NCBI RefSeq assembly: GCF_900188335.1
Contig: NZ_FZOY01000006.1
Location: 62,001 to 126,000, forward strand
Direction: 5' to 3'
Source: Tropicimonas sediminicola
GTDB lineage: Bacteria; Pseudomonadota; Alphaproteobacteria; Rhodobacterales; Rhodobacteraceae
DNA: 64,000 nt
Below, piece by piece: positions 10,955-41,837 of the stretch. Each line of letters opens with the position of its first letter. Position 1 is the first letter of the stretch. The notes under the pieces are model-generated. The model saw nothing but the letters and a program-made list of their open reading frames with translations, did not search any database and had not been told where the DNA came from. The position numbers and the translations under genes are program-made.

Positions 10955-13369
10955 ATGAAAACCACCACGCAAGTCTGTGTCATTGGCGGCGGTGTCGTCG
11001 GCTGCTCCGTGCTTTACCACCTGACCAAGCTCGGCTGGAGCGACGTCATGCTGGTGGAGCGATCCGAGCTGACCAGCGGCTCCACCTGGCATGCGGCGGG
11101 CGGGTTTCACACGCTCAACGGCGACACCAACATGGCGGCGCTGCAGGGGTACACGATCGGGCTCTACAAGGAGCTGGAAGCGATCACCGGCATGTCCTGC
11201 GGGCTGCACCATGTGGGCGGGATCACCCTCGCGGACACGCCGGAGCGGTTCGACATGCTGAAGGCGGAGCGGGCCAAGCACCGGTACATGGGGCTCGACA
11301 CCGAGATCCTCTCGCCCTCCGAGATCAAGGCGATGGCCGAGCTGGTGAATGTCGACGGTATCCTCGGCGGGCTCTATGACCCGCTCGACGGGCATCTGGA
11401 CCCCTCGGGCACAACCCATGCCTATGCGAAGGCCGCGCGGATGGCGGGGGCCGAGATCGTGACGCATTGCATGGTGCGCGAGACCAATCCCCGCCCGGAC
11501 GGGACATGGGAGGTGGTGACCGACAAGGGCACGATCCACGCCGAGCACGTGGTGAACGCAGGCGGGCTCTGGGCGCGGGAGGTCGGCGCGATGGCAGGCG
11601 TCTACCTGCCCCTGCTGCCGATGGCGCACCAGTACATCGTGACCGACGACATCCCCGAGATCTACAACCGGGACGGCGAGTTCCCGCATATCATCGACCC
11701 CGGCGGCGAGAGCTACATGCGGCAGGAGGGGCGCGGGCTCTGCATCGGGTTCTACGAGAAGCCCTGCGAGGCCTGGTCGATCGACGGCACCCCCTGGGAG
11801 TTTGGCCACGAATTGCTGAACGACCAGTTCGAGAAGATCGAGGATTCGATCACCTTTGCCTATGCCCGCGTTCCGGTGCTGGAGACGGCGGGGGTGAAAT
11901 CGGTGATCCACGGGCCCTTCACCTTTGCGCCGGATGGCAACCCGCTGGTCGGGCCGGTGCCGGGGCTCAGGAACTACTGGTCGGCCTGCGCGGTGATGGC
12001 CGGGTTCAGCCAGGGCGGCGGCGTCGGGCTGACGCTGGCGCAATGGATGATTCACGGAGAGCCGGCGCAGAACAGCTTTGCGCTGGACGTGGCACGCTTC
12101 GGCAAGTGGACGACACCGGGCTACACCGTGCCGAAGGTGGTCGAGAACTACCAGAACCGGTTTTCCGTCTCCTTCCCGAACCAGGAACTGCCGGCCGCGC
12201 GCCCCTTCCGCACCACGCCGATGTACGACATCTGGAAGGGCATGAACGCGGTCTTCGGCCAGCAATACGGGCTGGAGGTGGTGAACTACTTTGCGCCCGA
12301 GGGGGCGACGCCCTACGAGGAGCCGACATTCCGCCGTTCCAATGCCTGGGAGCCCGTGCGGGCCGAGGTGCGCGCGGTGCGCGACGCTGTCGGGATCAAC
12401 GAGATCCACAACTTCGGCAAGTTCTCCGTCACCGGCCCGGGGGCGCGGGACTGGCTCGACCGGATCATGGCCGGGCGCATCCCGGCGCCGGGCCGGCTGG
12501 CGCTGTCGCCGATGCTGGCGCCGTCCGGACGGCTGATCGGCGATTTCACCATCTCATGCCTCGGCGCGGAGGAGTTCCAGCTCACCGCCTCCTACGGCAG
12601 CCAGGATTTCCACCTGCGCTGGTTCGAGCAGAATGCAGCGGACGGCGTGACGGTCCGCAATGTCTCCGACCTGCGCACCGGGTTTCAGATCGCCGGCCCG
12701 AAGGCGCGGGAGCTGCTGGCGCGGGTCACGCGGGCGGATGTGGGCGCCGAGGCCTTCCGGTTCCTGGACGTGAAGCGGATGACGGTGGGCATGGCCGACG
12801 CCATCGTGCAGCGCGTGAGCTATACCGGGGATCTCGGCTACGAGATCTTTGTCGACCCGATGAGCCAGCGCAACCTGTGGCATGTCCTGTCGGCGGCGGG
12901 CACGGACCTCGGGCTGCGCCCGTTCGGGATGCGGGCGATGATGTCGCTGCGGCTCGACAAGGGTTTTGGCGGGTGGCTGCGGGAATATTCGCCGGACTAC
13001 ATGCCCGCCGAGACCGGGCTCGACCGTTTCATCGCCTGGCAGAAGACAGCGCCGTTCATCGGCCGGCACGCCGCGGAACAGACCCGGCGCGAAGGGCCGG
13101 CTCGGCGGCTCTGCACCTTCATCGTCGATGCCGAGGATGCGGACGTGGCGGCCTACGAGCCGATCTGGCTCGACGGCGCGGTCGTCGGGTTCTGCACCTC
13201 GGGCGGCTACTCGCATTACGCGGAGAAATCCGTTGCCATCGGCTTCCTGCCGACCGAGCGGATCCGCGACGGGCTGGAGGTGGAGATCGAGATCCTCGGC
13301 GCGCGGCGACCGGCGCGGCTTTACACCGAACCGCTCTTCGATCCCGACGGCGCGCGCATGCGCGGCTGA
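10955..13369 (+). CDS. FAD-dependent dimethylglycine/sarcosine dehydrogenase-like protein with GcvT domain
   Basis: An 804-residue two-domain demethylase. Residues 1-370 are a DAO-type FAD oxidoreductase with GGGVVG at 11-16 and STWHAAGG, whose His46 aligns with the histidine that covalently binds FAD in dimethylglycine and sarcosine dehydrogenases. Residues 410-800 form the linker plus GcvT aminomethyltransferase folate-binding domains (FSVTGPGARDWLDRI, SYTGDLGYEIFV, RLDKGFGGW). Such enzymes oxidise an N-methyl group and hand the one-carbon unit to tetrahydrofolate in glycine betaine or related catabolism. No soxBDAG or betaine genes adjoin it, so the exact N-methyl substrate is open. The start follows GCCGGAGG with good spacing. 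Confidence 0.88.
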   Translation: MKTTTQVCVIGGGVVGCSVLYHLTKLGWSDVMLVERSELTSGSTWHAAGGFHTLNGDTNMAALQGYTIGLYKELEAITGMSCGLHHVGGITLADTPERFDMLKAERAKHRYMGLDTEILSPSEIKAMAELVNVDGILGGLYDPLDGHLDPSGTTHAYAKAARMAGAEIVTHCMVRETNPRPDGTWEVVTDKGTIHAEHVVNAGGLWAREVGAMAGVYLPLLPMAHQYIVTDDIPEIYNRDGEFPHIIDPGGESYMRQEGRGLCIGFYEKPCEAWSIDGTPWEFGHELLNDQFEKIEDSITFAYARVPVLETAGVKSVIHGPFTFAPDGNPLVGPVPGLRNYWSACAVMAGFSQGGGVGLTLAQWMIHGEPAQNSFALDVARFGKWTTPGYTVPKVVENYQNRFSVSFPNQELPAARPFRTTPMYDIWKGMNAVFGQQYGLEVVNYFAPEGATPYEEPTFRRSNAWEPVRAEVRAVRDAVGINEIHNFGKFSVTGPGARDWLDRIMAGRIPAPGRLALSPMLAPSGRLIGDFTISCLGAEEFQLTASYGSQDFHLRWFEQNAADGVTVRNVSDLRTGFQIAGPKARELLARVTRADVGAEAFRFLDVKRMTVGMADAIVQRVSYTGDLGYEIFVDPMSQRNLWHVLSAAGTDLGLRPFGMRAMMSLRLDKGFGGWLREYSPDYMPAETGLDRFIAWQKTAPFIGRHAAEQTRREGPARRLCTFIVDAEDADVAAYEPIWLDGAVVGFCTSGGYSHYAEKSVAIGFLPTERIRDGLEVEIEILGARRPARLYTEPLFDPDGARMRG

Positions 13370-30160: not shown

Positions 30161-30243
30161 AATTTTCCGGTTTGTCACGCTCTTGCTGGCGCGACGCGGC
30201 ATCGAACGATACCATGCGCTCAAAAGCAGTGAAGGGTGTGGCG

Positions 30244-32226
30244 ATGATGGATCCTGCGACGCGGCTTGGCACCGCGCCTCTTTGGCTTGCCTGTGCATGG
30301 CTCGCAGGTGCGCTTGCCGTGGCAGCGCAGGACCAGCCGGAATCGCCCGCGGTCGAGCCCCCGGCCTACGTGGGCACCATGGCTTGCGCCGAATGCCACA
30401 CCGCCGAATTCGAAAGCTGGACCGGCTCGCACCACGATCTCGCCTGGACCGAACCGACCGCCGAGAACATCCTCGGCGATTTCGATGACGTGACCTTCGA
30501 ACACCAGGGCGTGACCACCACCTTCAGCCGCGAGGGCGACCAGTTCTTCATCGAGAGCGACGGGCCCGATGGCGCGCTGACCAGGTGGCCGGTGGCCGGG
30601 GTGATCGGCATCACCCCGCTCCAGCAGTATTTCGTCGAGACCGAACCGGGGCGGATGCAGAGCTTCGACATCCCCTGGGACGTGATCGAGAACCGCTGGT
30701 ACCACATGTATCCCGAGGAGCACCTGCCTGCGGGCGACGGCTTTCACTGGACCGGCCCCTACAAGAACTGGAACGCGCGCTGCGCGGAGTGCCACGCGAC
30801 CGATTTCCAGCGCAACTACGACCTGCAGACCGGCAGCTACGCCAGCACCGCGAGCGAGATCGGCGTCGGCTGCGAGGCATGCCACGGCCCCGGCTCGGCC
30901 CACCTAGACTGGGCGGCGGCGGTCGATGCGGGCACGGAGTTCGAGGTTCCGCCGGCCCTGAGCCCGACGGGCTTCACGGTGGACTACGCCGCCTCCGACG
31001 CCGAGACGGAAATGCAGCAATGCGCCTCCTGCCATTCCCGGCGCGGCACCTATCTGGGTGGGTCTCCCCTGCCCGGCACGCCGTTCCACGACGCCTACCG
31101 GCTCTCCACCCTGCGCGACCCGCTCTACCACGCGGACGGCCAGATCCGCGACGAGGTCTATGCCTACGGCTCCTTCCTCCAATCCAAGATGTATGCCGCA
31201 GGCGTCCAGTGCTCGGACTGCCACGACGTGCACAGCGCCACGCATTACAACGAGGGCAACGACGTCTGCGCCACCTGCCACTCGCCGGCGGGCAACTCGG
31301 ACTTCCCGACCCTGAAGCTGGCCGAGTACGACTCGCCCGAGCACCATTTCCACCCCGAGGACAGCGAGGGCGCGCAATGCGTTTCCTGCCACATGATCGA
31401 GCGGGTCTACATGGGCGTCGACGGGCGGCATGACCATTCGTTCCGCGTGCCGCGCCCGGACCTGACCATTGCCGTCGGCACGCCCAACGCCTGCACCGAC
31501 TGCCATGCGGAGGAAGGCCCCTACTGGGCGCAGGAGGAGCTGGACAAGCGCTTCCCGAACTCCGCCTATCGCGGCGATCACTTCGCGCTGGCCTTCGACG
31601 CCGCCTTCAAGGGCGAGGCGGGGATGGGCGACACCCTGGTGTCGATCGCGCTCAGCCCGTCCATGCCGGGGATTGTCCGGGCGACGGCGCTGGAACTGCT
31701 CGCGCCGCAGGCCACGCCGGAGCAGGCCGAGCAACTGGCGCTGCTACTGGAAGATGCCGACCCGATGGTCCGCACCCATGCCGTCTCGCTGCAACGTGTC
31801 GCGGCGCCGACCGACATGGTCGTGCGCATCCTGCCGCGACTGTCGGACGAGAGCCGGTCGGTCCGCATCGCCGCCGCGCGCGAGATGCTTGCCGCCCCGA
31901 TTGCCCACTTGCCCGACGCCAACGCCCGGGCGCTGGCCGGCGCAATGGGCGAATGGCAGTCCTCGCTCGCCAACACCGCCGATTTCCCGGAGACCCAGCT
32001 TGTTCTGGGCGGCATCGCCCTGACCACGCGCAACCTCGAAGGGGCGATCAGCGCCTTCGGTGAGGCCACGCGGCTCGATCCGCAGCTCGTTGCCGCCTGG
32101 TCGATGCTGGTTCGGCTCCGCGCAGCGAGCGGCGACGAGGATGGCGCCCGCGAGGTGCTGACCGAGGCGCTGTCGCTGAACCCGGAGGATCCGACGCTGC
32201 TCGGCCTCGAGGCACAGCTGCCCTAG
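30244..32226 (+). CDS. octaheme cytochrome c with HEAT-like and TPR repeats
   Basis: A 660-residue secreted protein. Start 30244 is favoured by GAAGGG nine bases upstream; a signal peptide follows (LWLACAWLAGALAVAA). Eight CXXCH haem sites occur at residues about 48, 180, 210, 260, 323, 342, 379 and 417, in a cytochrome c554-like region (YVGTMACAECH). After residue 430 the protein changes to HEAT-like and then TPR repeats (about 470-655). Such proteins occur in respiratory or detoxifying periplasmic electron transfer, but this fused type has no assigned reaction. It lies between a Crp-family regulator gene and a PQQ sugar dehydrogenase gene, which could donate electrons to it (inference). Confidence 0.92.
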   Translation: MMDPATRLGTAPLWLACAWLAGALAVAAQDQPESPAVEPPAYVGTMACAECHTAEFESWTGSHHDLAWTEPTAENILGDFDDVTFEHQGVTTTFSREGDQFFIESDGPDGALTRWPVAGVIGITPLQQYFVETEPGRMQSFDIPWDVIENRWYHMYPEEHLPAGDGFHWTGPYKNWNARCAECHATDFQRNYDLQTGSYASTASEIGVGCEACHGPGSAHLDWAAAVDAGTEFEVPPALSPTGFTVDYAASDAETEMQQCASCHSRRGTYLGGSPLPGTPFHDAYRLSTLRDPLYHADGQIRDEVYAYGSFLQSKMYAAGVQCSDCHDVHSATHYNEGNDVCATCHSPAGNSDFPTLKLAEYDSPEHHFHPEDSEGAQCVSCHMIERVYMGVDGRHDHSFRVPRPDLTIAVGTPNACTDCHAEEGPYWAQEELDKRFPNSAYRGDHFALAFDAAFKGEAGMGDTLVSIALSPSMPGIVRATALELLAPQATPEQAEQLALLLEDADPMVRTHAVSLQRVAAPTDMVVRILPRLSDESRSVRIAAAREMLAAPIAHLPDANARALAGAMGEWQSSLANTADFPETQLVLGGIALTTRNLEGAISAFGEATRLDPQLVAAWSMLVRLRAASGDEDGAREVLTEALSLNPEDPTLLGLEAQLP

Positions 32227-33810: not shown

Positions 33811-36009
33811 TCAGGCGAAAGGGGCCGCCCGCTCGATCAGTTCCGCGAGGTTCGGCTCGTCCGGATTTCGCGGCTGGCCCGGGTGGATGATGCTCACCTG
33901 GCAGCCCTCCGCCGCCTCGACCAGTTGCCGGTAGGTGCCGGCGTCCGGATCGGCGATATAGGCCTGCATGTTCTCGTTGTAGCGGAACATGGCGCTGTTC
34001 ACCTGGGTGCATTCGTTGCAGGTGGTGCAGCGGGCGGTCTCGATCCAGGGCACGCCGTCGGCTGCCCCTTCATCGGCTGGCTCGGCCGCAACCGGGGGCG
34101 CCTCTGCAACGGCCGGTGCCGGTTCCGGCGCCAGAGCGGGTTCCGGCTCGGCCTCGGCCTTGCGCTCCGCCGCCTCCCGCGCCTTCCGTTCGGCGGCAAG
34201 CAACCGCAGGGCGTGGGAATTGTTCACCCCCGCCAGTTCGAGCAGCCGCCGCCAGGCATCGTTGCAGCGCAGCGCCGCCTCGACGATCTTGGCGTCGACG
34301 ACAACCCGGAAAAGCCGGTTCTCGGGATCGATGCCGAGCACGTAACTGCTCTCGATCGCGTTGCCCTCGTCCGGTTCGGCCAGATGCTCGGCGGTGGGCA
34401 TCATCGCAGGCGTCCAGCCGTCCTGTGGCACCGCATGGCAGAACCGCTGGTAGCGCGCGTCGCAAATCGCGAAATCCGCAAAGCTGAAGGCGATCCTCTC
34501 CCGGCAGCCCTGCCCCTCGCGGTCCTCGTAGTCCAGCACATGCTCCGGCCAGTCCGCCTCGCATTGCGGGTTGACCGAGAGATCGAAGCGCGAGGCGAGG
34601 TCCGCCCCGGCGGCCGGATCATAGGTGAAGTTCGGGAAGACCCGCGCCTCGGTCGCCGCGGCGGACAACACGTAGGGCGCGACCCCGCGCACGCTCGGCG
34701 TGGCGCCGGAGTAGATGCAGAACAGCGCCGGCCCGTCGTAATCCATCCCCCGTCGCAGCGCCCGGCACATCCGGAAGAGATGCGCACTGGCAGCCTGGAA
34801 GACGAAAGCGTTGTTCAGTCCCATCGCCATCGAGGCGAGCCGCGTCGTGCCGGCGCCGAAGCTGTTGCGCGGCGGTTCGGGCGCGGTCGGGCCGAGCAGG
34901 TCGTCGACCTGGATCAGCACCGTGATCGGCAGCCCGCAGGCCAGCGCCTCGTAGGCGCGGGCAATCTCGGCCGAGACCGTCACGCCGTCCCTCAGGCAGA
35001 TCAGGGCCGAGGGCAGCAGGTCCATCTGCTCGGCGGTCAGATCACTCTCGTCGAAACGGGCAAAGACCGGGTCGTGCAACTCGGGCCGATACTTGTTATC
35101 CACCTCGAGCTCGGCGACGGTCATCGCCTTGGTGAATTCCAGCACGTCCGGCAGGCGCGCCCGATGCGCGTTGAGCGCGTCCGAGACGCTGGTGAAAGTG
35201 TAGTTGTAGGGCTCCGGCCTCTTGGGGCAGCTTTGGGACGCGCGGCCCGGACCGAAAAACGGCTGACATCGAAGCGCCTCGAGCGCGTGCCGGATACGTT
35301 TCACCCGGTCCTCCGGCAGGCGATCCTCGGGCCGTGCCCGCTCCAGCACACCGGACAGCGCGTCGAAGTCGATCGACCCGTCGACGTCGCGCCCCATGGC
35401 GGAAGCCAGCGCCTCGGCTCCATGCGCCTCGTGCGATTTCATATGGTCGGACTTCAGGATGTCGGACAGGCGGAGGATCAGGCTCTCCACCCGCTTGCGG
35501 AAGCGCCGCGCCTTGGCGTCCTGCCGGGCCTTCCAGGCATGGGTGACGACCCGGGCCGGGGTTTCCGCGTTGCAGCCGATCACCTCGCCGTCGAGGTCCA
35601 GATGCCGGCGGGCGGCGTCGAGGTTGCTGTCGAGCGGCCCGAAGGGCGCCTCGCCGCTCTCCTTCACCATCTCGGCGGCGGCCGTGCGCCAGAGCGCCGA
35701 GAGCCGCCCTGCCCGCCCGCCATTCACCGCGCGGCGGATCCGGGCTTCGAGCTTCAGCACCTGTTGGCGCATCGCCTCGCCATCGGCGCCGGGAGCGGCC
35801 GCGGCCTTGAGGATGTCGTCGATGATCCGGCTAAGCGGGCGCAGGAGCGTGGCGCCCTGCCCCTCGTCCACCAGCACCAGCGGGTAGTCGTGGCGAAGTT
35901 CGGAAAGCGCGCCATAGCGGGCGAAAAGCGCCGGGCGCAGCGCGCTCACGGACGCGGGCGCCGCGTCCTTGATGGATGGAAAGCTGTTGGCGAACTGGGC
36001 TTGTTGCAT
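33811..36009 (-). CDS. ferredoxin-tailed protein of the 2-oxoacid oxidoreductase operon
   Basis: A 732-residue protein, last of a five-gene operon. The N-terminal half (1-300) is helical and unfamiliar. The middle (about 300-610) has a pyruvate:ferredoxin oxidoreductase-like feel (FVFQAASAHLFRMCRAL, GPALFCIYSGATPS, VFPNFTYDP). An Ala/Pro/Glu linker (about 618-650) leads to a single-cluster ferredoxin domain: Cys661, Cys664, Cys667 and Cys703 (CTTCNECTQ ... GCQVSIIHPG), fit for one [4Fe-4S]. Start 36009 follows the beta-subunit stop by five bases. It is likely the electron carrier or third subunit linking the oxidoreductase to the NfnA/NfnB-like pair. I cannot name a characterised homologue. 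Confidence 0.75.
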   Translation of the reverse strand: MQQAQFANSFPSIKDAAPASVSALRPALFARYGALSELRHDYPLVLVDEGQGATLLRPLSRIIDDILKAAAAPGADGEAMRQQVLKLEARIRRAVNGGRAGRLSALWRTAAAEMVKESGEAPFGPLDSNLDAARRHLDLDGEVIGCNAETPARVVTHAWKARQDAKARRFRKRVESLILRLSDILKSDHMKSHEAHGAEALASAMGRDVDGSIDFDALSGVLERARPEDRLPEDRVKRIRHALEALRCQPFFGPGRASQSCPKRPEPYNYTFTSVSDALNAHRARLPDVLEFTKAMTVAELEVDNKYRPELHDPVFARFDESDLTAEQMDLLPSALICLRDGVTVSAEIARAYEALACGLPITVLIQVDDLLGPTAPEPPRNSFGAGTTRLASMAMGLNNAFVFQAASAHLFRMCRALRRGMDYDGPALFCIYSGATPSVRGVAPYVLSAAATEARVFPNFTYDPAAGADLASRFDLSVNPQCEADWPEHVLDYEDREGQGCRERIAFSFADFAICDARYQRFCHAVPQDGWTPAMMPTAEHLAEPDEGNAIESSYVLGIDPENRLFRVVVDAKIVEAALRCNDAWRRLLELAGVNNSHALRLLAAERKAREAAERKAEAEPEPALAPEPAPAVAEAPPVAAEPADEGAADGVPWIETARCTTCNECTQVNSAMFRYNENMQAYIADPDAGTYRQLVEAAEGCQVSIIHPGQPRNPDEPNLAELIERAAPFA

Positions 36010-36014
36010 GAGCC

Positions 36015-37004
36015 TTACTCCCCGACCTGCGCGGCCGCGCCGTCGGGCCAGATCCCGACCTTGTCGAATTCCTCGTTGAGCACCGTCTCGACCAGCGCCG
36101 GCGTGTTCGGCCGCTCGCCCGCGCGCAGCTCGTCGTAGCAGGGCACGTTCGGGTTCCGGTACAGGATTCCCACAGGGATCTCGCCCTCCAGCGCGGCCAG
36201 CGCCAGCGCGCGTTCCATGTTCAGCGGATCGTGGGTTTCCTGGTTCTTGTAGACCCGGCTGAGGTCCGGCGCGAGCCGCAGACCGTCGCCATGGGTCAGG
36301 ATGCGCATCTTCGACGGATCGCGCACCCAGTCGTCGAACCGGTGCTCCATGAAGTTCGGGCAGCGCTGCAGGATGCGGATGAACGAGAGCCCCTTGTGGT
36401 GATAGGCCTGCCGCAGGATCTGGTAGAGCAGGTCCGGGATCCAGTCGACCGCCTGCGCCACGAAGGAGACGTTGGAAACGCCCAGCGTCACCGTCAGCGG
36501 GTTGAGCGGATTGAGCGTGGCGCCGAAGGGCGTGGTGTTGCTCTTCATGCCGTGCGGCGAGGTCGGCGAGGCCTGTTTCTTGGTCAGGCCGTAGACGTTG
36601 TTGTCGTGCAGCAGCACGGTCATGTTCATGTTGTAGCGGATCGCGTGCAGCCAATGCGCCGCCCCGATCGAGCAGCAATCACCGTCGCCCATGGTGACGA
36701 AGACATGCAGGTCGGGCCGGCGGATCTTGATCCCCTCGGCAATCGGCAGGGCGCGGCCGTGGATGCCGTGAAACCCGTAGGCGTTCATGTAATGCGGCAG
36801 GCGCGAGGCGCAGCCGATGCCGGAGACGCTGACCGTCTTCTCGGGCGGCAATTGCTCGTCGCGGCAGAGCCGCTGCATGGCGGTCAGGATCGCGGTGTCT
36901 CCGCAGCCGGAGCACCAGCGCGGTGCGATCTCGCTCTGGTAGTCGGAGATGGCATAGTCCGTCTGGACCATCTGCATCAGGCACTGACTCATCGAAGCTG
37001 TCAT
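36015..37004 (-). CDS. 2-oxoacid:ferredoxin oxidoreductase beta subunit
   Basis: A 329-residue thiamine-diphosphate subunit. The TPP motif is GDGDCCSIGAAHWLHAIRYN starting at residue 106 and closing with HDNNVYGLT. Cluster ligands are visible as Cys31 and Cys34 (RWCSGCGD), Cys65 (GIGCASR) and Cys215 (QRCPNF), the KorB pattern for one [4Fe-4S]. It works with the alpha subunit encoded just upstream, decarboxylating a 2-oxoacid (2-oxoglutarate or pyruvate-like) with CoA and reducing ferredoxin. The substrate cannot be told by eye. Oxygen sensitivity of such enzymes fits the FNR-type promoter of the operon. Confidence 0.93.
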   Translation of the reverse strand: MTASMSQCLMQMVQTDYAISDYQSEIAPRWCSGCGDTAILTAMQRLCRDEQLPPEKTVSVSGIGCASRLPHYMNAYGFHGIHGRALPIAEGIKIRRPDLHVFVTMGDGDCCSIGAAHWLHAIRYNMNMTVLLHDNNVYGLTKKQASPTSPHGMKSNTTPFGATLNPLNPLTVTLGVSNVSFVAQAVDWIPDLLYQILRQAYHHKGLSFIRILQRCPNFMEHRFDDWVRDPSKMRILTHGDGLRLAPDLSRVYKNQETHDPLNMERALALAALEGEIPVGILYRNPNVPCYDELRAGERPNTPALVETVLNEEFDKVGIWPDGAAAQVGE

Positions 37005-37013
37005 CGTTACCCC

Positions 37014-38945
37014 CTATGCCTTGCCCAGTTTCGCCAGCGCGGCGTCGACGATCGCGGCGGGCTTCAGCGGCTGCCCCCGCGCCTTGCCCCAGCAATCGAC
37101 ATCCACCAGCCAGCGCGACCGCAGGAGCATCGCGAGGTGCGAATAGCGGCGGTTGTCGCCGCCGATCAGCGGATCGTCCTTCGGGTCGTTCCAGTTGTTC
37201 TCGATGGTCATCACCTTGTCGAACCGGCGCATTACTTCGTCGATGCCGGATGCCATGGGCTGCAGGAACTTCAGGTGCAGCGAGGACACCCGGTGGCCGT
37301 CGGCCCGAAGCCGCTTCACCGCCTCCTCGATGGCGCCGCGGGTGCTGCCCCAGCCGATCAGCAGCAACTCCCCCTCCTCGTCGCCGAAGACGGGCGCCAG
37401 CCGCAGGGTCGTCTGCAGGGCGGCGAGCTTGCGCGAACGGTTCAGCAGCCCTTCCTCGTTGATCTCGGGGTCGTAGGCCACGTGGCTGTCGCGGTCATGC
37501 GCCAGCCCGGTCAGGCAGTGCATCCCGTTTGGCTGCCCGGGAATGAAGCGCGTGGCGATGCCGGTGCGCTCGTCCCAGTCGTAGGGGCGCGCATCCTCCG
37601 GAACCGCGCTCTGGTTGACAGGCGGGGCGAGCCAGTCGGCGTTGAACTTCGGCCGAGGGTATGGCTGCTGCGCCGTGGCAAGCGCCGCGTCGGAGAGGAT
37701 CACCACCACCATGTTGAAGGTCTCCGCGATCTTGCGCGCGGTGATGACGGAATAGAAGCAATCCTCGATGGAGGAGGCCGCCATCACGACCTTTGGCGCA
37801 TCGCCGTGCCCGCCGAAGATCGCGGCCATCATGTCGCCCTGCTCGACCTTGGTCGGCAGACCGGTCGACGGCCCGCCGCGCTGCACGTCGATCACGACAA
37901 GCGGGATCTCGGCCATGACGGCCAGCCCGATCGCCTCCTGCTTGAGCGAGAGGCCCGGACCGGAGGTGATCGTCACCGCGCATTTGCCGGCATAGGAGGC
38001 GCCGATGGCGAAGGTCGCGGCGGCGATCTCGTCCTCGGCCTGGTGCACCACGCAGCCCACCTTCTCGAAGACGCTGCTGAGGTAATGCGACGCTGAGGTC
38101 GCGGGCGTGATCGGGTACATCGCGCAGACCTCCATCCCGGAGGCCACGACGCCGAGCGCGAGCGCCGCGTTGCCGTTCATCACCACCTGCGGCTCGGTCA
38201 CCGGCGGCGCGGGGATCTGGTAGCGCAGGTCGAGATTGGCCTCGGCCCAGGCGCGGCCCGCATCGAGCAGCTCGATATTGGCGTCGACGATCTTCTGGTC
38301 CTTCTTGGCGAAGACGAAACGCACCTGCGCCCGGGCCAGTTCGGCATCGAGGCTGTAGATCGCGCAGAGCATCCCCAGCACGAACATGTTCTTGCCGCGC
38401 CGCGGGTCCGGAACGGATTTCTGGCACTCCGCCTCCATCGGCACCTCGAAGAGCCGATAGCCCGCCGCCCGCACCTCGTCGCGCACCTTGGCATAGGCGC
38501 GGGCGATCTCGGGGTTCGGGTCGTGCGTCCACATGTTCTCGAGGATGATCGTCGCGCCCGGCTTCACCTCGCCCGCGTGCAGCCGGCTCAACAGAACCTG
38601 CTCGTTAAAGGCCACGACCAGATCCGCCTCGTCGCCCACGTTGGTCACGCGATGCGCGGCCATGCGGACCCGGTTGCCGCTGGCGCCCGCGACCGAGCGG
38701 TGCGGCGGCTGGATCTCGGCGGGGATGATCTCGACCGTCCAGATGCCCATGCCGGACCGCGCGGCGATGGCCGCCAGCGATTGCCCGCAGCGCTGCGCGC
38801 CTTCGCCGGAATCGCTCACGACCTCGACGATGTGTTCCTGAAGGATCTCCGCGGTCCGCCCCTGCGGCGCCGCGCCGCCCGGTCCGTCAACCTGCCGCGA
38901 AAGCATGGCGGTCTCGGCCTGGTGTTGCTTGCCATTGAGTGTCAT
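37014..38945 (-). CDS. 2-oxoacid:ferredoxin oxidoreductase alpha subunit (gamma-alpha fusion)
   Basis: A 643-residue subunit combining the gamma domain (about 38-225; SDSGEGAQRCGQSLAAIAAR, GDEADLVVAFNEQVL) with the alpha domain (about 245-643; MYPITPATSASHYL, HQAEDEIAAATFAIGASYAG, TSGPGLSLKQEAIGLAV), as in KorA-type proteins. It pairs with the beta subunit nine bases downstream. The first 35 residues are a variable hydrophilic extension (MTLNGKQHQAETAML). It lies between the NfnB-like gene and the beta subunit gene, all on one transcript. KorA-like architecture favours 2-oxoglutarate or a branched or aromatic 2-oxoacid over pyruvate, but this is inference. Confidence 0.93.
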   Translation of the reverse strand: MTLNGKQHQAETAMLSRQVDGPGGAAPQGRTAEILQEHIVEVVSDSGEGAQRCGQSLAAIAARSGMGIWTVEIIPAEIQPPHRSVAGASGNRVRMAAHRVTNVGDEADLVVAFNEQVLLSRLHAGEVKPGATIILENMWTHDPNPEIARAYAKVRDEVRAAGYRLFEVPMEAECQKSVPDPRRGKNMFVLGMLCAIYSLDAELARAQVRFVFAKKDQKIVDANIELLDAGRAWAEANLDLRYQIPAPPVTEPQVVMNGNAALALGVVASGMEVCAMYPITPATSASHYLSSVFEKVGCVVHQAEDEIAAATFAIGASYAGKCAVTITSGPGLSLKQEAIGLAVMAEIPLVVIDVQRGGPSTGLPTKVEQGDMMAAIFGGHGDAPKVVMAASSIEDCFYSVITARKIAETFNMVVVILSDAALATAQQPYPRPKFNADWLAPPVNQSAVPEDARPYDWDERTGIATRFIPGQPNGMHCLTGLAHDRDSHVAYDPEINEEGLLNRSRKLAALQTTLRLAPVFGDEEGELLLIGWGSTRGAIEEAVKRLRADGHRVSSLHLKFLQPMASGIDEVMRRFDKVMTIENNWNDPKDDPLIGGDNRRYSHLAMLLRSRWLVDVDCWGKARGQPLKPAAIVDAALAKLGKA

Positions 38946-38963
38946 TGCCGCCTCTCCGCCTCG

Positions 38964-40466
38964 TTACGCCAACTGAACATGGGTGAAGGTCTTCTCGGCC
39001 AGGTCGATCCCGAACAGGCTGTTGTCGAACCCGTTTCGGTCCGCGGCATAGACGACCGCGCTGTCCCGGATGCCGAGATAGGCCCGGATGCTCGCCGCTG
39101 CCCTGCGCCCTGCCCCCATCGCGAGGATCACCGTCGCCGCCCCGGTGACGATGTCGCCGCCGGCATAGACGCCCGCCAGCGAGGTCGCGAGATCGGCGTC
39201 GGTGTCGATATAGCCCCACTTGTTGAGCCTGAGCTTCGAGGTCTGGCCGAGGATCGGGTTGGGCGAGGTGCCAATGGCGTAGACCACCGTGTCGGCCTCG
39301 AAATCGAACTCGCTGCCCTCCACCGGCACCGGGCGTCGGCGGCCGGACTCGTCGGGCTCGCCAAGTTCCATCTGCTGGCAGCGGATGGTGCGGACGTTGT
39401 TCTCGGCGTCGCCCAGCAGCTCGACGGGCGTGGTCAGCCAATGGAACTGGATGCCCTCCTCCTGCGCGTGGTGTAGTTCTTCCTTGCGCGCCGGGCACTC
39501 GACCTCGGTACGGCGATAGACGCAATGCACCTCCTCCGCGCCCAGCCGCAGGGAGACCCGCATCGCGTCCATCGCGGTGTTCCCGGCCCCGATCACCGCC
39601 ACCCGCTTGCCTAGCCCGAGCGGGGTGTCGTAGCTCGGGAAATCGCCGGCATGCATCAGGTTGCAGCGCGTCAGCAGTTCATTGGCCGAGAGCACGCCGT
39701 TGAGGTTCTCGCCGGGGATGTCCATGAAACGCGGCGTTCCGGCCCCCGCGCCGATGAACACGGCGTCGAAGCCCATCTCGCCCAGCATCTGCTCCACGGT
39801 GAAGAGCCGCCCCACCAGCGTGTTGCAGCGGATTTCGACCCCGAGTGCCTCCAGGTTGGCGATCTCGGCGTCGACCACGCTGTTGGGCAGGCGGAACTCC
39901 GGGATGCCGTAGCGCAGCACTCCGCCCGGCGCGTGCAGCGCCTCGAAGATCGTCACCTTGCAGCCCGCCTTGGCGAGATCGGCGGCGCAGGCCATGCTCG
40001 CCGGGCCCGATCCGACGATGCCGACGCGGAACGGCACCGGCTCGATGTGGCTGGTCTTGCGCCAGCCGTTTGCGATCGCCTGGTCGCCCAGCCAGCGCTC
40101 CAGCCGCCCGATCGCCACCGGCTCCAGCCGGTCGCCCACCGGGCAGACGCCCTCGCACTGCTCCTCCTGCGGACAGACGCGGCCGCAGACCGCGGGCAAC
40201 AGCGTCGAGTCGGTCAGGTGGTTCCAGGCGCCCTCGAAATCCTTGCCGATCATCTTTGCGATGAAGCCGGGGATGTCGATGTTGACCGGGCAGCCCTCGA
40301 CGCAGGCCGGCTGCGGGCACATCAGGCAGCGCTCGCATTCCAGCAGCGCGTTCTCGCGGTCGAAACCGAGCGCCACTTCCTCGAAATTCCGCGCCCGGGC
40401 CTCCGGGTCCTGCACGGGCATGAAGGCCCGCTCCTGCGGAATGCTGCGGATCGTCTTGCGGGCCAT
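38964..40466 (-). CDS. NfnB/GltD-like FAD/NAD(P) oxidoreductase
   Basis: A 500-residue flavoprotein of the glutamate synthase small-subunit family. The N-terminal domain binds two [4Fe-4S] clusters (Cys44, 47, 50, 55, 59 and Cys94, 98, 104, 108). Two Rossmann folds follow: FAD (VGIVGSGPASMACAADLAKAG at about 147-167; quoted in part, GSGPASMACAADLAK) and NADP (VAVIGAGNTAMDAMR). No glutamate synthase large subunit is adjacent; its partner is the NfnA-like gene, whose stop is two bases from ATG 40466. A GTG at 40472 is an alternative start overlapping that stop. Together they resemble the NADH/NADPH/ferredoxin bifurcating enzyme Nfn, or a ferredoxin:NADP reductase. Confidence 0.9.
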   Translation of the reverse strand: MARKTIRSIPQERAFMPVQDPEARARNFEEVALGFDRENALLECERCLMCPQPACVEGCPVNIDIPGFIAKMIGKDFEGAWNHLTDSTLLPAVCGRVCPQEEQCEGVCPVGDRLEPVAIGRLERWLGDQAIANGWRKTSHIEPVPFRVGIVGSGPASMACAADLAKAGCKVTIFEALHAPGGVLRYGIPEFRLPNSVVDAEIANLEALGVEIRCNTLVGRLFTVEQMLGEMGFDAVFIGAGAGTPRFMDIPGENLNGVLSANELLTRCNLMHAGDFPSYDTPLGLGKRVAVIGAGNTAMDAMRVSLRLGAEEVHCVYRRTEVECPARKEELHHAQEEGIQFHWLTTPVELLGDAENNVRTIRCQQMELGEPDESGRRRPVPVEGSEFDFEADTVVYAIGTSPNPILGQTSKLRLNKWGYIDTDADLATSLAGVYAGGDIVTGAATVILAMGAGRRAAASIRAYLGIRDSAVVYAADRNGFDNSLFGIDLAEKTFTHVQLA

Positions 40467-40468
40467 GC

Positions 40469-41422
40469 TCACGCCTTCTCGCTTGTCGCGCCCTCGGGCG
40501 CCATTGCCAGCCGGCGGCAGCTGGCGTCGTAGCGGTCCAGCGCCTCCCGCTCCTGCGGCCGGTAGCGCGCCAGCCGCGCCATCAGGTCATCGAAATCCAC
40601 CTCGTGGCCGTCGAAATCCGGCCCGTCAACACAGGCGAACCTGATCCGGCCGCCCACCCGCACCCGGCAGCCGCCGCACATGCCGGTGCCATCCACCATG
40701 ATCGGGTTCAGGCTCACCATTGTCCTGATCCCGTGCGGCCGGGTCGCTTCGGCGCAGGCCCGCATCATGATCGGCGGGCCGATGGCGACGAGCTCGTCGA
40801 TGTCGCCATGCGCGGCGATCGCCTGTTCGATGCCCTGCGTGACCAGCCCCTTGATCCCGGCCGAGCCGTCGTCGGTGCAGATCACGAACTCGTCGCAGAC
40901 ATCGCGGAACTTCTGCTCCCAGAAGATCAGCTCGCGGCTGCGGAAGCCCACCACGCCGATCACGTAGGCGCCGGCCTCCTTGAAGGCGCGCGCCTGCGGA
41001 TAGATCGGCGCGACGCCCAGCCCGCCGCCGACGCAGATCACCTTGCGCGCGTCCGAGATCTCGCTGGGAATGCCCATCGGCCCGACCAGTCCGAAGAGCC
41101 GCGCCCCCGGCACCATCCGGGCCTGCATCTCGCGGCTGGACTTGCCGACCGCCTGAACCACCAGCGTGATGGTGCCCGCCTCCCGGTCGAAATCGGCGAT
41201 TGTCAGGGGAATCCGTTCGCCGTGATCGTCCAGCATGACGATGACGAACTGTCCAGGACGCGCCGCGCGGGCCATCTGGGGATGACTGACCTCGAGGAGG
41301 AATGTCGTCTCCGAGAAATCCTGGCGGTCGACCACCGGAAAGCCGCCGCCCCGATCCGCCTTGCCATCCGGCGTGGAAACGGCCGCTGCAGACGCGCCCG
41401 GCACCCTGTCCTCCTCAGACAT
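40469..41422 (-). CDS. NfnA/SudB-like FAD and [2Fe-2S] subunit
   Basis: A 317-residue ferredoxin-NADP reductase-fold protein of the sulfide dehydrogenase/NfnA type. FAD- and NAD-binding segments are [20 protein letters not shown] and [21 protein letters not shown] (in part [12 protein letters not shown]). The C-terminal cluster site [11 protein letters not shown] ... [11 protein letters not shown] gives Asp244, Cys249, Cys252 and Cys264, the Asp/Cys3 ligand set of the NfnA [2Fe-2S]. Start 41422 is preferred over 41428 because the GGAGGAGG upstream is correctly spaced only for it. It opens the operon, 92 bases downstream of a perfect FNR box. A 30-residue hydrophilic extension precedes the core. 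Confidence 0.9.
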
Positions 41423-41837
41423 CGGCATCCTCCTCCCGAAGTGTGGCGTTGTCGGACCCCATTGCCCGGGCTCGCCAACGCGGCCGACCCTAGCCCCCTC
41501 CCGCAGGCCTGCATTGATGCGGATCAAACCGCGGGGCGACATCTGGATTTTTCCGAATGTGTGCCTCTTTGGCCGATCGCCCAGGCCATCCGCCTTGCGC
41601 GGCCAAATGGCCTGTGCTACCCGCGCAAGTGACCGATCTAAGACCCCTGCGCCAGGGAAGACGCGCCCCTTCATACCGCCCGAGACCGGGCCGAAGGACC
41701 AGCGTGGGCGCGCAGGGATCGCAAGCGGTCGCACGACATGCGCCGTGTGGAGGACGGGCCGGTTTCATTGCCCCCGCGATTCCGCACAGACTTCCCCACT
41801 GGCACGCCGCAGGTGCCACGAATACAGGACGACAGCC
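41423..41837. other. 415-base divergent regulatory region
   Basis: This gap separates the ferredoxin operon from galT. Apart from the FNR promoter (41487-41527) it contains an imperfect structure bounded by TTTGGCCG (41568-41575) and CGGCCAAA (41600-41607) in the galT direction. No gene was supported in the remaining 230 bases, and no clear galT promoter was recognised. Confidence 0.6.
41487..41527 (-). promoter_or_regulatory. FNR-activated promoter of the ferredoxin operon
   Basis: TTGATGCGGATCAA at 41514-41527 is a perfect match to the FNR/FnrL consensus TTGAT-N4-ATCAA. On the minus strand a TAGGGT hexamer (41492-41487) could be the -10 element; it predicts a start near 41479-41480, putting the FNR box centre about 41 bases upstream, the standard class II activation position. 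The box is 92 bases from the ATG of the NfnA-like gene and about 310 from galT, so it serves the ferredoxin operon. Confidence 0.85.

Follow-up and report, generated by a model that had tools for sequence, protein, structure and literature searches.

Enzymes that couple the oxidation of a 2-oxoacid to the reduction of a pyridine nucleotide are known from Azoarcus, in which KorABC of A. evansii (2-oxoglutarate:NADP+) and PadEFGHI (phenylglyoxylate:NAD+) carry, in addition to the 2-oxoacid oxidoreductase, an NAD(P) flavoprotein subunit that resembles GltD. The Azoarcus-type KorABC consists of three subunits and reduces NADP without an NfnA and, to our knowledge, neither KorABC nor PadEFGHI contains an NfnA or a subunit in which a dead pyruvate:ferredoxin oxidoreductase (PFOR) domain is joined to a ferredoxin. 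Here, we analysed a five-gene module of Tropicimonas sediminicola, located in a window of 64,000 nt (contig NZ_FZOY01000006.1, positions 62,001 to 126,000; all coordinates of the module are window positions), which encodes both Nfn subunits, the alpha and beta subunits of a 2-oxoacid oxidoreductase and a fifth protein with the features of such a dead, ferredoxin-tailed PFOR.

Nfn as a source of NADPH is covered in PMC4518329, and Nfn-like genes are widespread in other lineages (PMC6405883). Four Nfn patterns are distinguished in the review PMC6405883, whose consulted passages do not mention a five-gene unit, and PFOR is named among the genes of nfn clusters in one of its figure legends. In the Alphaproteobacteria, the Nfn homologue AadN of Rhodopseudomonas palustris is tied to a specific low-potential pathway, as the Nfn of the module would be, but, unlike the module, AadN is a single fused protein without a 2-oxoacid oxidoreductase (PMC9973337). 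Of the ten R. palustris strains listed in the same source, all but one have either AadN or KorAB, and one has neither.

The five-gene module

All five genes are on the minus strand, arranged head to tail, and their open reading frames (ORFs) are open. In gene order, they encode a protein like the small subunit of Nfn (nfnA; FAD, NAD site and [2Fe-2S] cluster; 40469..41422), a protein like the large subunit (nfnB; two N-terminal [4Fe-4S] clusters, FAD and NADP site; 38964..40472), a gamma-alpha fused subunit of a 2-oxoacid:acceptor oxidoreductase (37014..38945), the catalytic beta subunit with thiamine pyrophosphate (TPP) and a proximal [4Fe-4S] cluster (36015..37004) and a fifth protein of 732 aa (33811..36009); the spacings amount to -4 (overlap), 18, 9 and 5 nt. 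The nfnA start was taken as 41422, because a GGAGG upstream is better spaced for this position than for the alternative ATG at 41428, and nfnB starts with a GTG that overlaps the nfnA stop by 4 nt. For the family scans, nfnA was used as a longer frame of 421 aa and the fifth protein with three extra N-terminal residues. The fifth gene is known from 12 genomes, 11 of which hold a complete module, and the module in the twelfth (locus L016) is cut by a contig end.

NfnA matched NF004862 with 378 bits (cut-off 220) and NfnB matched TIGR01316 with 571 bits (cut-off 472) as well as Fer4_20 and Pyr_redox_2. The nearest structures in the PDB are P. furiosus NfnI for NfnA (5jca_S, E 2.4e-91) and T. maritima Nfn for NfnB (4ylf_B, E 1.9e-164). 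The A-B gene order and the cluster-ligand motifs are the same as in these two enzymes but, unlike there, nfnAB of the module share an operon with a 2-oxoacid oxidoreductase and with a protein that joins a dead PFOR domain to a ferredoxin. The Asp/Cys3 motif that ligates the [2Fe-2S] cluster and the FACVDG motif were identical in all 11 modules with an nfnA match, C49, C52, C57 and C61 as well as C96, C100, C106 and C110 of NfnB were retained in all 11 modules with a complete nfnB, and a YRR motif, which we take to be NADP-binding, was present in 12 of 12. NfnAB may catalyse electron bifurcation with NADPH, NAD and ferredoxin, an activity that some homologues lack (PMC5861303, PMC6405883).

Alpha, in which a POR gamma domain is fused to POR_N, matched TIGR03710 (519 bits, cut-off 483); beta was slightly under the cut-off of TIGR02177 (247 versus 262 bits) and over that of PF02775. 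Their nearest PDB structures are 6n2n_A (E 1.5e-85) and 6n2n_B (E 3.1e-53), presumably the 2-oxoglutarate:ferredoxin oxidoreductase (OGOR) of Magnetococcus. The motifs YPITP and QRGGPSTG of alpha were found in all 12 modules, and the substrate arginine is present as well; the motifs CxxC, GC, GDG, DN and RCP of beta, comprising four cysteines and the TPP motif GDG..N, were likewise intact in 12 of 12. Alpha and beta are therefore assigned by family and motif to the two-subunit 2-oxoacid:acceptor oxidoreductases. They share the gamma-alpha fusion, a beta subunit without ferredoxin domain and the catalytic motifs with the two-subunit OGOR/KorAB enzymes (6n2n; Hydrogenobacter KorAB); four residues of the pocket read as in KorAB, but beta has an Arg in place of Lys49. 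They differ from these enzymes in their tie to NfnAB and the fifth protein and in an unusual loop of alpha, which reads PAEIQPP in all 12 modules and PAEIKGG in 6n2n_A.

Wherever the fifth gene was found (12 genomes), the gene order was the same, and the five genes were contiguous in 11; in L016, the contig ends within nfnB and within the fifth gene, and an nfnA with 68% identity is located close to the beginning of another contig. This conservation is far beyond chance. The five proteins co-diverge, their pairwise distances being correlated with r 0.73-0.98 over 11 modules, and all five genes are under purifying selection, with ratios of nonsynonymous to synonymous differences (pN/pS; four genome pairs each) of 0.12-0.24 for four of them (nfnA 0.16-0.24) and 0.34-0.41 for the fifth. 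In contrast to the conserved module, five flank proteins of the window were found beside none of the 10 other modules (flanks covered: ~3.5-5.3 kb next to nfnA and 0.4-10 kb at the opposite end, with the window as positive control); judged by their translations, they resemble galactose, cytochrome, sugar-dehydrogenase and transporter genes. These observations support the view of the five genes as a unit. The original prediction, which had been made from the DNA alone and had described a tightly spaced module with these families and intact cluster sites, is thus confirmed as an observation, and its interpretation is supported in part.

The module is rare. Among 60 relatives, the fifth protein was found in six of nine genomes of the genus (own included), in one of 27 other members of the family and in none of 24 further members of the class, and a contig scan of close relatives gave a single confirmed locus, in Cohaesibacter. 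In a set of 385 genomes of the class, five have the fifth protein and relatives of beta with at least 62% identity are limited to the same five, the next best reaching at most 50%. Relatives of nfnA (E <= 1e-25) were detected in eight of the 385, five of which are the module carriers (Fisher p 8e-10). The separate occurrence of nfnAB, which the original prediction had named as an argument against its reading, was thus seen in part, in three of eight matching genomes and as a second Nfn copy in two module carriers. However, NfnA of the three genomes without module is 47-55% identical to that of the window, compared to 66-79% in the four other carriers, and the close type (at least 66%) was found only together with the module.

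The fifth protein

The fifth protein gave no match above cut-off in Pfam or NCBIfam, a C-terminal match to Fer4_13 being 0.2 bit short. Searched against its own genome, it found a second match with 28% identity (E 6.6e-18) in a PFOR of ~1,665 aa on the same contig. PFORs of this type, which are called giants hereafter, were then used for a profile comparison: hhalign aligned 11 copies of the fifth protein with 10 giants over 583 columns (E 2.4e-70), residue 140 to the end corresponding to columns 1000-1634 of the giant model. From this match, we conclude that the fifth protein represents the C-terminal half of a ferredoxin-tailed PFOR type of ~1,650 residues and, as read from its motifs, catalytically dead. 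When 11 fifth proteins were aligned together with 7 giants, the TPP motif GDG proved to be replaced by RDG in eight fifth proteins and by HDG, RLR and CGQ in a single copy each; all 11 lack NTGGQ, and only one of the four cysteines of the beta-domain cluster (C146) is left in 11 of 11; some copies have a cysteine close to the lost third one, but its position is not conserved. The C-terminal C-x2-C-x2-C...C is invariant in all 11 complete copies, and the profile of the tail matches ferredoxin I in the PDB (1dax, E 6e-5; the organism is presumably Desulfovibrio). Having lost the TPP motif and all but one of the four cluster cysteines while keeping the [4Fe-4S] tail, the protein can be regarded as a putative pseudoenzyme that serves as electron adaptor, and its PFOR-like body is now probably only a docking scaffold. 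The original prediction had described the protein as ferredoxin-tailed, which holds for all 11 complete copies, but had missed the dead PFOR TPP body.

A decayed duplicate was ruled out, since none of the 11 complete copies has an interrupted ORF and selection on the gene is purifying, albeit weaker than that on its neighbours. A recent copy of the giant PFOR gene of the same genome is not supported either: in the tree, the fifth proteins group in a single clade (100/100), separate from the giants. The tree is unrooted and does not fix the exact parent of the fifth protein. Read from the alignment, an extension past the last cysteine is common to the fifth protein and the giants linked to Rnf genes, but is not found in the local giant.

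Ferredoxin-tailed PFORs and related loci

The giant of the window's genome is part of a second PFOR-Nfn operon on the same contig, ~63 kb beyond the module (locus L012, 6525-14269 in locus coordinates), which was not part of the original prediction. This operon encodes a complete single-chain PFOR of 1,665 aa, extended in length and ending in a ferredoxin-like tail, followed by paralogues of nfnB and nfnA (42 and 41% identity). Giants occur in eight of nine genomes of the genus and, as frames of 1,651-1,698 aa, in 11 genomes (own included) of a phylum sample (n=398). In that sample, 50 genomes had some match to the fifth protein, only the window's own being of fifth-protein type, and most of the remaining matches were weak and in frames of ~550-590 aa; among 72,556 plasmid records, two matched the fifth protein, both via giant PFORs. 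Ten giants were fetched with their context, those of the remaining genomes of the 60-relative and phylum samples being left out. The fifth protein matches the C-terminal half and the tail of the giants, and both adjoin NAD(P) modules, but unlike the fifth protein the giants are complete PFORs: GDG, NTGGQ and the four beta-domain cysteines are retained in 10 of 10 aligned.

At six of the ten loci (L012, L055-L059), nfnB and nfnA are located directly downstream of the giant, and at the other four (L017, L018, L053, L054), including Gemmatirosa and Persicobacter, Rnf genes are located beside or around it. Since the giants adjoin either nfnBA or Rnf genes, the tailed chassis appears to go with NAD(P) modules. 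A search of the literature gave no description of Rnf-linked giant PFORs among the matches listed, and the rnf operon in the consulted part of PMC3534657 has no PFOR in it. In Gemmatirosa, the Rnf cluster with the giant also holds an alpha-beta pair of the module type, which is 58 and 52% identical and has the PAEIQPP loop; therefore, the module-type alpha-beta and the tailed chassis associate in two settings.

Several further features of these loci were noted. The NfnB next to the giant has an Asp in place of C49 of the module at four loci (L012, ~11,850-13,312; L056-L058), and in L012 its first N-terminal cluster motif is also interrupted by an insertion; going by sequence, one cluster of the giant-adjacent NfnB may be altered. 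A protein of 344 aa between beta and RnfB of Gemmatirosa (L017, 5035-6069) weakly resembled the dead PFOR domain when searched as a single sequence (E 0.001), but as a second relative of the dead beta domain it is only suggestive, as hhalign gave a probability of 1.1% and BLASTP found nothing. A PorA-PorB-GltD-like trio without an nfnA match is encoded on another contig of the window's genome (L060, 9382-12954; tblastn only), and another adjoins the module in genome G053 (L014, 13927-17849). Near the module, an ORF of 684 aa on the plus strand (30172-32226) has several CxxCH motifs and resembles, by its translation, a multihaem cytochrome. Within the window, ARAGORN found no tRNA and no Rfam match reached the gathering score.

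Discussion

We propose, with a probability of roughly 0.55, that the module encodes a dedicated 2-oxoacid:NAD(P) oxidoreductase, whose substrate is most likely 2-oxoglutarate and in which the fifth protein would wire alpha-beta to NfnAB for the formation of NADPH. Alpha-beta would oxidatively decarboxylate the 2-oxoacid with CoA on TPP and single electrons would pass from TPP to the [4Fe-4S] cluster of beta. Lacking a ferredoxin (delta) domain, alpha-beta depends on a separate electron carrier; directly beside beta lies the fifth gene, whose product offers a [4Fe-4S] tail on a PFOR-shaped body. The cluster of beta would thus reduce this tail, from which electrons would flow via the N-terminal [4Fe-4S] clusters of NfnB and FAD to NADP, and electrons from NADH would join via the NAD site of NfnA (confurcation). 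The net reaction would be 2-oxoglutarate + CoA + NADH + 2 NADP+ -> succinyl-CoA + CO2 + NAD+ + 2 NADPH; alternatively, the end step would be a simple NADP reduction if NfnA idles. The fuller picture, a so far undescribed multi-subunit confurcating 2-oxoglutarate:NAD(P) oxidoreductase wired by a dead-PFOR pseudoenzyme ferredoxin and belonging to a wider set of tailed PFORs that are plugged interchangeably into Nfn or Rnf, is put forward tentatively, at somewhat less than even odds.

2-Oxoglutarate is favoured because the alpha-beta residues aligned with Ser41, Thr349, Asp468 and Leu123 of StOFOR are A, T, L and L, the pocket set of the 2-oxoglutarate-specific KorAB (PMC5020499), with the Ser41 column aligned by eye and the other columns taken from printed alignments. 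Besides this alignment by eye, several points weigh against the proposal. The position of StOFOR Lys49 is an Arg in beta, as also in 6n2n_B, and the exchange K49R shifted the preference of StOFOR1 to pyruvate (PMC5020499). An ordinary 2-oxoglutarate dehydrogenase (OGDH) E1 is also encoded in the genome; therefore, the module is not required for this step of the tricarboxylic acid cycle and would be an added route to NADPH. The first ~139 residues of the fifth protein have no assigned homology, it evolves fastest of the five, and its profile alone retrieved only ferredoxin I and no PFOR from the PDB, so that its identity as PFOR depends on the bridge through the giants. Further, some Nfn homologues are non-bifurcating, for example Nfn2 of P. 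furiosus (PMC5861303; also PMC6405883). The physical complex is inferred from genes and sequence, and likewise electron path, substrate, confurcation and direction are predictions that go beyond the sequence.

The same genes could form an operon of two loosely cooperating soluble enzymes, a 2-oxoacid:ferredoxin oxidoreductase and an Nfn, with the fifth protein as a diffusible carrier and no stable complex. P. furiosus enzymes of these kinds work via free ferredoxin, and operon linkage by itself is no proof of contact. Moreover, nfn clusters vary, some of them including PFOR (figure legend in PMC6405883). However, a body of ~600 residues is kept on the ferredoxin in all 11 complete copies, which would be costly for mere carriage of a cluster, and scaffolds with such a tail are repeatedly encoded beside Nfn or Rnf genes; a free carrier is considered unlikely, though the foremost alternative. 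Clearly less probable is a non-bifurcating 2-oxoacid:NADP+ oxidoreductase like the Azoarcus KorABC, in which NfnA would be vestigial or regulatory. Alpha-beta-GltD-like enzymes that reduce NADP are known, and PorA-PorB-GltD trios without an nfnA match are present in the window's genome (tblastn only) and beside the module of another genome, but the identity of the [2Fe-2S] motif in 11 of 11 NfnA and the purifying selection on nfnA argue that the second flavin/NAD site is likely used.

OGOR is reversible and so, in principle, the module could run in the opposite direction, bifurcating electrons from NADPH; the low-potential electrons would then serve to carboxylate an acyl-CoA reductively or to supply some other enzyme that depends on ferredoxin. 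Nfn operates both ways (PMC5861303) and the R. palustris homologue was proposed to feed benzoyl-CoA reductase (PMC9973337). Yet the genome has an oxidative OGDH, and the five flank proteins, none of which is shared by the 10 other modules, do not resemble genes of this kind (the search for reductive-cycle or benzoyl-CoA genes was confined to these flanks); reductive carboxylation is possible, but no result favours it, and the reverse direction is very improbable.

The wired NADPH-forming complex remains our preferred reading. The concept of coupling such an oxidoreductase to NAD(P) is not wholly new, because GltD-like couplings exist and PFOR occurs in nfn clusters. The five-gene unit or the fifth protein was not found described among the matches listed in searches of the open-access literature, which do not exclude a description elsewhere. 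Judged by its sequence, the module looks real, conserved and functional and is built from known kinds of enzymes, and the family of the fifth protein appears to be new.

If the proposal is true, an Nfn-type enzyme would be firmly connected, through an adaptor of its own, to a single carbon-oxidising enzyme and would not draw on the free ferredoxin pool, and a bacterium that already has an ordinary OGDH would possess a route from a 2-oxoacid to NADPH. The fifth protein would then be a clear case of a dead metabolic enzyme domain that is reused as a scaffold for electron transfer, and the occurrence of the tailed PFOR chassis next to Nfn as well as Rnf genes points to a plug-in design of general use.

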